Of a stretch of DNA of 64,000 nt, positions 58,493 through 61,432 are shown in pieces. The notes below the pieces were generated by a model, which made no database searches, was not told the DNA's origin, and worked only from the letters and a program-made list of their open reading frames with translations. The stretch comes from Priestia megaterium (GTDB lineage: Bacteria; Bacillota; Bacilli; Bacillales; Bacillaceae_H): NCBI RefSeq assembly GCF_023824195.1, contig NZ_CP085442.1, positions 4,316,001 to 4,380,000 of the forward strand, read 5' to 3'. Made by a program: the position numbers and the translations under genes. How positions within the stretch are numbered: the stretch's first letter is position 1; each line of letters opens with the position of its first letter.

Positions 58493-61432
58493 TTAAAGGC
58501 CACATTTCAGCTGTGCACCACAGTTTGTACATGTGTTGCATCCGCCCATTTCTTCTACCGTTCCTTGACGGCAAACCGGACAAGTATTACCTACTTCAGA
58601 ACCGATTGTTACATCAGTTGAACGAATTTCATTAATTGTATCAACTAACACAACGTGCGGTTTCGTTTCTTCTTTTGGCGCTTCAATTTCTTCATCAAAC
58701 GTATTTTCTTCTGCTTTTAGCGTTAAGACTTGTGCATCACGGCTGCCGTCTACGTACACCGTACCGCCTTTTGCTCCGCCTTTATACAGACGCTCGTACA
58801 CTTTTTGAACTTGCTCTACTGTGTAACCGCGAGGAGCGTTTACTGTTTTACTAATTGAACTGTCAATCCAGCGCTGAATCACACATTGCACGTCCGCGTG
58901 AGCTTGTGGTGCAAGTTCCATAGCTGAAATGAACCATTCAGGAAGGTTGTTTGGATCTGCTTCTGGATGCTGATCTAAATATTCTTGAACGATATCAGCT
59001 TTTACTTCAATGAACTTACCTAAACGGCCGCTTCGGAAGTATGAGAATGAGAAATAAGGTTCAAGACCCGTTGATACCCCAACCATTGTTCCAGTACTGC
59101 CTGTTGGCGCTACTGTTAATAAATGAGAGTTTCGGATACCGTGCTCTTTAATGTTTTCACGAATATCTTCAGGCATTTTTTTCATGAAGCCTGTATTTGT
59201 AAATGCTTCACGTAAAGAAGCCGTTTCAGCATCTGTTTCACCCACTAAGAACGGGAAGCTTCCTTTTTCTTTTCCAAGCTCTACAGACGCGCGGTAAGCC
59301 GTCGTTGCAATTGTTTCAAACACTTTATCTACTAACTCATTGCCTTTGTCAGAGCCGTACTCTGTTTCACAATAAATAAGGAGATCGTGAAGACCCATTA
59401 CACCAAGGCCAACGCGGCGTTCGCCAAGCGCTTGCTTTTGGTTTTCTTCTAAGAAATAAGGAGTTGCATCAATAACGTTATCTTGCATTCTAACGCCTGT
59501 TTCAACCGTTTGACGTAACTTTTCAAAGTTAACAGTTTTCGTTTCTTTATCTGCCATTTGCGCTAGGTTAACAGCAGCTAAGTTGCAGACAGAGAATGGT
59601 GCAAGTGGTTGTTCACCACATGGGTTTGTTGCAACAACGTGCTGACCATATGCTTGAGCATTTGTCATATCATTAGCATTGTCAAAGAAGAAAATGCCTG
59701 GTTCAGCTGAGTACGTTGCACAAATATTAATTAAGTTCCATAGCTCTTTTGCACGGATAGTACGGTACGTACGAACTTTGTTTCCTTGTTTTGCCCATTC
59801 GCGCACATCGCCTACTTCGTGCCAGTTTTCGTTGTAATTAGCCATTTCTTCTTTTGAATAGCTTTCTACATCTGGGAAGCGAAGTTCGTATTCACCGTCG
59901 TTTTCAACAGCATCCATAAAATCTTTTGTTAAGCATACAGAGATGTTTGCTCCTGTTAAAAACTCTGAGTTATGAACGCTGTACGTTCCGCCGGTTTGTA
60001 GCTTTTCTTCTGCATCTTTAATGATTTTTTCATTGAATCCACCAAGACCAGGAATTTGTTTATAGTTAATGATTCCTTGGTACATTGCTTCTTCAGACTC
60101 TGTTAGCGGTGTGAACTTCAATTTATCTTGCGCATGTTTTTTAATCATTTCGTCATTTGTGTTTTCAATTAAGAAACGTAAAATGCGAGGGTTTTGCATT
60201 TTAGAAATAATAAACTCTACAATGTCAGGATGCCAGTCGGCAAGCATGATCATTTGAGCCCCCAATTTGTTACTCTTCGTTAAGAAGGGTACGGTCATTT
60301 CTGCCGTACTCTTACACTTTCATGTAAGATCAGACTATATCATCAAAGAAGAAAACTCCCTTGTCTCGTGCCCCGTAACCACGTTGCCGTTTGCTATGGT
60401 TTACTCCTTCCTTTGCTTCCATCATAACACCTACTTTATTCACTAAAGTTTTATTACATTAGAATTTTTAGGAAGTTTCAATAGTCGTTGAACCTTTATC
60501 TTCGTTTCCAAAGACACTTGGCTGCTGATTGCCCAATCTTTCCCCTTTTCTAACCATCACGCTCATCGTTGCCGATCACGTTGTGGTGAAGAAAGCTCTA
60601 AGGGTGTTCCAGCAATTCACGAGATTACGTCGCCGGTTTGTTAACGACGTGACCCACCTTGCTCAACAAGATGCGTCAGTTTGGCAATATCATCCAACCA
60701 TGAAACCGAACCAGATGATTTGCCGTTTACACCGCGAGCCAGCGTGTTGCGCGGGCGAAGAGTTGAACCATTCGTTCCAACACCGCCTCCACGGCTCATG
60801 ATCTCCATTACTTGTTTGCGGTGTTCTGAAATACCTTCACGTGAATCTTTTACATAAGGCATTACGTAGCAGTTGAAGTACGTTACGTCTGTATCAGCGC
60901 CTGCACCGTAAAGAACGCGGCCAGCTGGTACAAAGTTTAGCTGAACAAGCTCTTGATAGAACTTTTCAAACCACTCTTTGCGCTTTTCTTCTGTTTTTTC
61001 CACAGAAGCTAAGCCTGTTGCATTACGTTTTGCAATTTGCTCGTAGAAGACCTCTAGAGGCTTTTCAATGACATCTAACGAACGAGTAATTAACCCGTTT
61101 TCTGCTTCTTCAGGCGATAAAGCACCTCTAAACTCATCCTCTACCTTGACAACAGCGGTCTTTTGCTCAAAATTAATGCTTTCCACATAGCCAAGTCCTC
61201 GTGCTGGAAATTTTGGATCTTCCTTTACAGTTAGAACAACAAAATCTCCTTCTGATAACGTTAATTTTTCCGTGTCTTTAAAAGCATAGCGGTCTAACAT
61301 TACCAATCTTGAAACACCTTTATGAGTCAACTTCATATCCGGTGTAATCGGATGTACTTGCGGAAAGCGTTCAATATCTGAATTGAGCTTTTCAACATTC
61401 ATATTCACTTTTTGATTTAACAAAACAGTCAT
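58493..61432 (-). CDS. nrdJ: adenosylcobalamin-dependent (class II) ribonucleotide reductase, interrupted by a group I intron
   Basis: Reduces ribonucleotides to deoxyribonucleotides with a B12-derived radical, independent of oxygen. The reading frame is join(exon 1: 61432 down to 60644; exon 2: 60262 down to 58493), 263 + 589 = 852 aa. Exon 1 ends VEQGGSRR and exon 2 resumes GAQMIMLADWHPD, restoring a conserved motif. Other marks are the redox cysteine in YFNCYV, NPCGEQPLAPFSVCN with catalytic Cys and Glu, APTGSTGTM, and a C-terminal zinc ribbon (CPVCRQGTVE, CNTCTNCGA). The ATG lies 8 nt after AAGGAG. The gene is inserted between lipM and mntR compared with B. subtilis. Confidence 0.93.
60263..60643 (-). 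ncRNA. group I self-splicing intron in nrdJ
   Basis: A 381-nt insertion without an ORF. Exon 1 ends in U; its ACGUCGU end pairs with an internal guide GGCGACGU (60627-60634), giving a U-G pair at the splice site (P1). The intron ends in G. P7 is a 6-bp pairing of GACTAT (60481-60486) with ATAGTC (60333-60338), within typical core text (TTCAACGACTATTGAA and GATATAGTCTGAT). A P4-like GGGCAATCAGCAGCCAAG lies upstream, and a P9-like hairpin (CTTACAT-GAAA-GTGTAAG, 60311-60328) follows P7. An in-frame UAA is the very first intron codon. Confidence 0.88.

Follow-up and report, generated by a model that had tools for sequence, protein, structure and literature searches.

The accessible part of the review PMC3984707 names flagellin genes, recA and nrdE as the protein-coding hosts of group I introns in bacteria. 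The introns known from nrdE/nrdF and recA of Bacillus and its phages, which often carry homing endonuclease genes according to excerpts of PMC3984707 and PMC3653736, resemble the intron analyzed here in occupying DNA-metabolism genes in the same host class; the latter differs from them in its host gene, a class II nrdJ, and in the deletion of its endonuclease gene. Flagellin-gene introns of thermophilic Bacillaceae (cited in PMC3984707, accessible part), and paired introns in presumed flagellin genes of the genus studied here, have cores 70-80% identical to that of the present intron over ∼145 nt but lie in another host gene and at other sites. Among reductase genes, nrdA of Salinibacter contains a group I intron (PMC3019208, in excerpt) and more than 100 group I introns were recorded in RNRdb by 2009 (PMC2795772, in excerpt). 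For nrdJ itself, the available sections of PMC3653736 count two split genes in phages, one of them with a 12-nt gap, and cite inteins in two nrdJ genes from ocean metagenomes. No description of a chromosomal nrdJ group I intron was found in the open-access literature searched (PMC, outside which most subscription papers lie), and nrdJ introns may already be present in RNRdb. The element described below, located in a 64-kb stretch of DNA (the window), is of a known kind and new as a member of it; the main novelty lies in a codon-step shift of the insertion site and in the number of sites occupied in nrdJ.

The nrdJ gene of the window is carried by the reverse strand in two exons. Exon 1 (60644..61432, codons 1-263) starts at ATG 61432, which is preceded at 8 nt by AAGGAG, with GTG 61438 as an alternative start, and exon 2 (58493..60262) provides codons 264-852 and the stop. 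Both are open reading frames that match the NCBIfam family NF005991. Exon 1 covers positions 3-264 of 858 with 489.8 bits, below the whole-protein cut-off of 854 as a fragment must be, while the exon 2 frame, taken from 60298, covers positions 263-858 with 1197.1 bits, above that cut-off. By this curated family the exons encode a class II ribonucleotide reductase, and among solved structures the B12-dependent reductase 1xje is the best relative of the joined NrdJ. With 60644 joined to 60262, the frame has 854 codons from GTG 61438 or 852 from ATG 61432 and no internal stop. Elsewhere the same genome has an nrdE frame of 754 aa and an nrdF frame of 348 aa, so that NrdJ need not be essential.

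The 381 nt between the exons (60263..60643, reverse strand) begin with an in-frame TAA and end with G. The Rfam family RF00028 matches at 60680-60311 of the same strand over its full model (positions 1-253 of 253) with 76.2 bits and an E-value of 1.5e-17, for a gathering score of 50; it is the sole Rfam family found in the window at gathering scores, and a covariance search of the genome gave no second match. Exon 1 ends with CGT CGT, the intron starts with TAACAAACCGG and ends with AACAAATTG, and exon 2 starts with GGGGCT. An exact empty site is provided by L043 (genome G001), a locus of the same genus whose nrdJ has no intron and aligns gap-free with the joined exons across 2565 nt at 97.4% identity. 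By sequence and structure, the segment 60643-60263 is therefore a real group I intron. The first-pass annotation had proposed a group I intron in nrdJ within these limits, had predicted a hit of the covariance model in this interval and had placed the splice junction so that removal restores a single frame of 852 codons, all of which is borne out by the RF00028 match, the joined frame and the G001 alignment. Toward its 3′ end the intron has no stop in the reading frame of exon 2 (60298-58493), and an ATG at 60298, inside the intron, begins a 601-aa frame that continues into exon 2; annotation pipelines may therefore wrongly call this frame as a gene of its own.

The secondary structure contains the elements expected from the initial reading, namely P1 with a U-G splice site, P7 formed by GACUAU and AUAGUC, P9 with a GAAA loop and a terminal G. 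In P1, the exon strand ACGTCGT (60644..60650) pairs over 7 bp with the internal guide sequence GCGACGT (60627..60633, intron bases 11-17), as ACGUCGU/GCGACGU, the final U of the exon making the U-G pair at the 5′ splice site. For P10, the CC at intron positions 8-9 can pair with exon 2 positions +2 and +3, a weak helix of 2 bp that reaches 4 bp in the related introns of loci L178 and L180. The pseudoknotted core, with both P3 and P7, is present in an alignment of 19 introns shorter than 460 nt, taken from the 32 introns found at the sites A1 and A2 defined below, of which A2 is the site of the window intron. In these 19 introns, P3 (5′ strand TCTCGTG, 60618..60624; 3′ strand CACGAGA, 60364..60370) is paired in 133/133 cells and P7 (5′ strand GACTAT, 60481..60486; 3′ strand ATAGTC, 60333..60338, placed by the covariation alignment) in 113/114. 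The P9 hairpin with its GAAA loop (60311..60328) is paired in 129/133 cells with several pair types, the P9.1 hairpin (60289..60309) in 114/114 with as many as six pair types in a single base pair, and the P5 extension in 151/152. As drawn, P5a (62/76), P7.1 (61/84), P7.2 (76/108) and P9.2 (55/92) are poorly paired across the set. Altogether, standard pairs occupy 91.8% of the cells of the 73 named pairs, a count that leaves out P1 and P8; 500 shuffles average 82.1% and never exceed 84.2%. Displacing the partners by 1-3 positions leaves 37-45% of cells paired, a comparison that favors the true partners because the window sequence served to draw the structure; the compensatory changes are independent of this bias. 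The minimum-energy fold, which excludes the P7 pseudoknot, has a z-score of −5.33, and none of 100 shuffles folds as low.

The best explanation of the whole, which we regard as very probable on these sequence comparisons, is that of a self-splicing nrdJ group I intron derived by deletion from a LAGLIDADG homing intron and now passively inherited. The nrdJ transcript would fold into a P1-P9.1 ribozyme, in which a guanosine bound in P7 would attack after the U of the second arginine codon; a second attack, by exon 1 after the terminal G, would link CGT to GGG and restore NrdJ. On unspliced RNA, ribosomes would halt at the junction, where intron base 1 opens the in-frame TAA, and would thus be kept off the ribozyme. 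Removal of the intron from the transcript is argued for by the compensatory changes in the 19 introns and by purifying selection on the exons. Synonymous differences number 67 and non-synonymous ones 5 between the intron-bearing nrdJ of the window's genome (G000) and that of G003, against 46 and 3 between G000 and G006, with no internal stop in either comparison; in the more distant G005, 205 synonymous and 93 non-synonymous differences are counted against the window gene in the first 481 codons. From the excess of synonymous changes and the absence of stops we infer that NrdJ is made and used, and hence that the intron is removed.

Two other accounts of the intron in its gene bear on this point. 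Splicing might be under regulation, with growth state or cobalamin as possible signals, making the intron a switch on the supply of NrdJ. The junction stop would indeed leave unspliced RNA giving a dead fragment, and a c-di-GMP-controlled group I intron, mentioned in the accessible part of PMC3984707, offers a general precedent. Yet no riboswitch or other Rfam family appears at gathering score in the window, and a relative whose nrdJ is 97.4% identical does without the intron, which makes such a switch improbable. Still less probable is an intron that no longer splices, in a decaying nrdJ pseudogene whose work is done by NrdE and NrdF: both of these genes are in the genome and the intron endonuclease is already gone, but the core helices are intact and the ratio of 67 to 5 between two intron-bearing alleles free of stops speaks against decay.

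The reading of a spliced intron of homing ancestry also accounts for a short coding remnant in its core. At 60360..60425 (reverse strand), 22 codons (MMEAKEGVNHSKRQRGYGARDK), recognized by blastp-short and by comparison of frames, are what is left of a LAGLIDADG endonuclease gene of which the rest is deleted; they contain the bases of P3′. The 22-residue peptide matches the N-terminal part of 13/13 members of the endonuclease group described below, with E-values of 4e-13 to 0.004, and its three further hits have E-values of 4 or more. A full-length counterpart is found at the same site in L178 (genome G236), in an intron that shares with that of the window an identical insertion point and the guide GCGACG, and differs from it by its complete LAGLIDADG frame and by a core 83% identical. 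This frame measures 294 codons from stop to stop and matches LAGLIDADG_3 (PF14528) with an E-value of 6e-10 when tested from an internal methionine; it has no ATG before the conserved N-terminus, TTG being a possible start. It starts before P3′ and stops at a UAG within P7′. In L180, an endonuclease remnant is present. The claim that the window intron has no homing endonuclease frame thus stands for an intact gene, since 22 codons were all that was found, and has to be amended for the relic. The accompanying view that its mobility would need another source does not hold for past mobility, which would need no outside source given the full-length frame at the same site in G236.

These comparisons suggest that the window intron arose by deletion from an intron that carried a LAGLIDADG gene. 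Its ancestor would have been a homing intron whose endonuclease gene overlapped P3′, P8 and P7′, and reduction of that gene to 22 codons would have left an intron that is passively inherited. LAGLIDADG_3 has no match in G000 or in the nine other genomes of the genus; with respect to this family, the intron appears immobile now. In the set analyzed, the same site is occupied by introns in three other genomes of the genus, G003 and G006 (98% identity) and G005 (85%), as well as in G236 and G299. Five positions flanking the site (−7, −4, −3, −1 and +2) differ between the window and the intron-less G001, in a gene otherwise 97.4% identical, and all but −7 also separate the intron-bearing G003 from G001. 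This is as expected if the flanks entered together with the intron by co-conversion. The cluster is small, since as many differences are found in 99 of the 2445 segments of 120 nt in the same comparison, and it may reflect selection on guide pairing instead.

Relatives of the L178 endonuclease were not found in viral contigs. The core of the window intron matches 281 phage records, none over more than 80% of the intron length; among the best 20 of the 281, none is annotated as nrdJ and six have no annotation, and in the best-matching record the match lies between two annotated lysin fragments. Six plasmid records match 9-40% of the intron. In the genus, group I introns also occur in pairs, 442-454 nt from each other, in genes that we take, from our own reading of the frames, to encode flagellins (L002-L005, L008, L010, L012 and L014-L016, in G003, G006, G008 and G009), G008 having two such loci with paired introns. 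Another group I intron (L009, G006) lies in what is presumably the tape-measure gene of a putative prophage.

The distribution of nrdJ insertions was surveyed in 397 genomes of the order, searched with the joined protein. Matches at an E-value of 1e-20 were obtained in 354, seven of them weak (5e-25 to 2e-22) and probably due to other reductases. Outside the full-length rows listed, 152 genomes with at least two matches were hand-picked and requeried with a 72-residue piece, which matched in 151/152. From these, 120 stretches were taken, on account of a short frame, an overlong one (G282) or a contig end (G030), and 31/152 genomes were left out; with the window, the set comprises 121 loci. Insertions occupy at least one of six exact sites, all within 1.2 kb of nrdJ coding sequence, in 115/121 loci. 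They total 152, which equals the number of hand-picked genomes by chance only, with 26 at A1, 6 at A2, 40 at A3, 18 at B, 46 at C and 16 at D. The frequency of at least 115 interrupted genes in 354 genomes is a lower bound, genomes with a single match or a full-length row being taken as uninterrupted. The base before the insertion is T in 152/152 cases and the last base of the insertion is G in 150/152. Six loci have no mapped site (L228, L251 and, some of them at contig ends, L172, L199, L234 and L252). Two or more insertions are present in 31 loci, six of which have three. Combination of A1 and B leaves an exon of 30 nt in eight loci (L149, L152, L165, L188, L190, L194, L198 and L210), and that of A3 and B an exon of 24 nt in L144.

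RF00028 is detected at its gathering score in 12/20 loci tested. In L178, the match corresponds to a site D intron, the long A2 intron being unmatched at that score. A laxer search of nine loci brought L158 above the gathering score and L214, L154, L231 and L186 below it, with no match at an E-value of 0.01 for L216, L219, L226 or L251. Insertions at site C are group I-like on our reading of the alignment. Frames of at least 90 codons are found in 57/152 insertions. Among seven endonuclease frames tested against Pfam, LAGLIDADG domains were found at A1 (L186), A2 (L178) and one A3 locus (L144), a DUF559/Vsr-like domain at another A3 locus (L154), HNH domains at B (L133) and D (L147), and NUMOD3, below the curated cut-off, in the internal part of a site C frame (L134). 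By blastp, the LAGLIDADG group contains 13 frames (nine from A1, one from A2 and three from A3), and 43 other endonuclease frames form one linked group (single linkage, E-value 1e-3). A division of the endonucleases of A3 (main type), B, C and D into cleanly separate families was considered and abandoned, all being linked within the group of 43. Other kinds of elements also occur near site C. In L251 (G282), an in-frame, intein-like insertion of 1125 nt lies near codon 480 at NPC|C, a motif that also hosts site C, and group II introns of ∼2.6 kb (RF00029, boundaries GTGCG...GAC) lie two codons after C in L149 (G151) and L228 (G109). A stretch of about 9 nt in nrdJ thus hosts three kinds of insertion, group I-like, group II and intein-like.

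An in-frame stop is found at the very start of 50/50 introns at sites A1, A2 and B, and is delayed by at most 11 codons at A3, 10 at C and 12 at D. Such stops fit the view, expressed in the accessible part of the review PMC3984707, that stalled ribosomes may favor folding. The survey also bears on a split nrdJ, in which the exons would be translated separately, exon 2 from ATG 60298, and the halves would assemble: this has in its favor the 601-aa frame opened by that ATG, the gene-in-pieces nrdA of phage Aeh1, which stays functional (PMC3653736, available sections), and an in-frame start with a Shine-Dalgarno-like motif before the downstream exon in 15/46 introns at C, 3/18 at B, 2/26 at A1 and 2/16 at D, but is highly improbable for the window, as none of the six A2 introns has such a motif before an exon 2 start, two of the six have no exon 2 start at all, and compensatory changes maintain a core that a split gene would not need.

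The window element can be compared with those at neighboring sites. Three consecutive codons of an SRRG motif are each followed by one of the sites A1, A2 and A3, A2 lying one codon after A1. The A1 introns (26 loci) belong to the same ribozyme lineage and the same LAGLIDADG family as the window intron, and differ from it by their position one codon upstream and by a guide that starts with GCGGGA in 24/26 loci. Core trees were built without P1 from 90 A and B rows and from 43 of these; alignment to the A-type core was possible for 0/46 C and 2/16 D insertions. In these trees, the A2 introns are placed among the A1 introns, and a single A1 clade that leaves out A2 is rejected (p-AU 0.00768). 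The window core is 90.9% identical to that of L186 over 197 columns and 90.4% to that of L166; L186 and L171 are A1 introns with cores close to that of the window. The L178 endonuclease groups with those of L186, L171 and L204 (support 95/99), and L178 and L166 have identical 3′ core segments. The guide reads GCGACTT in the A1 introns of L196 and L198, where the exon ends with AGT CGT, and GCGACG(T) at A2. On the evidence of these trees and guides, P1 claims being restricted to A1 and A2, one lineage holds both A1 and A2, and its insertion point has moved with a change of guide.

At least one codon-step move is needed to account for these relationships, and the data conflict on a second. The six A2 rows as one clade are rejected (p-AU 0.0152), and the four A2 rows of the window's genus as one clade are not rejected (p-AU 0.249). 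Two origins of A2 are not claimed, since the L178 endonuclease groups with A1 ones and its 3′ core segment is that of L166; parts of the introns have probably recombined. Five A3 introns fall into the A1/A2 lineage (branch 96/83), three of them also by endonuclease family. A second origin of A3 is not claimed either, as one clade for the nine A3 rows used is not rejected (p-AU 0.143). For most A3 introns the P1 finder fails, the best run being 4 bp in 31/40 and mostly on the P4 strand. The requirement for U before the splice site, together with the mostly third-codon position of T in the motif, would explain the three-base spacing of the sites, and the step itself could have occurred by misaligned repair at tandem CGT codons or by reverse splicing.

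In this order, nrdJ may be a principal host gene for group I introns, in which one LAGLIDADG lineage moves by whole codons along Ser-Arg-Arg-Gly, from A1 to A2 and A3, with rewritten guides, a proposal to which we give even chances. The gene is a striking hot spot with an ordered set of six intron sites, several endonuclease types and up to three group I-type insertions per gene, and its intron-bearing copies risk annotation as two or more broken genes. Introns with an endonuclease gene, with a relic or replaced by an empty site, together with adjacent-codon sites and rewritten guides, form a natural series in which gain, loss and shift can be tested. If the proposal is true, the insertion points of homing introns would be able to creep and would not be fixed.
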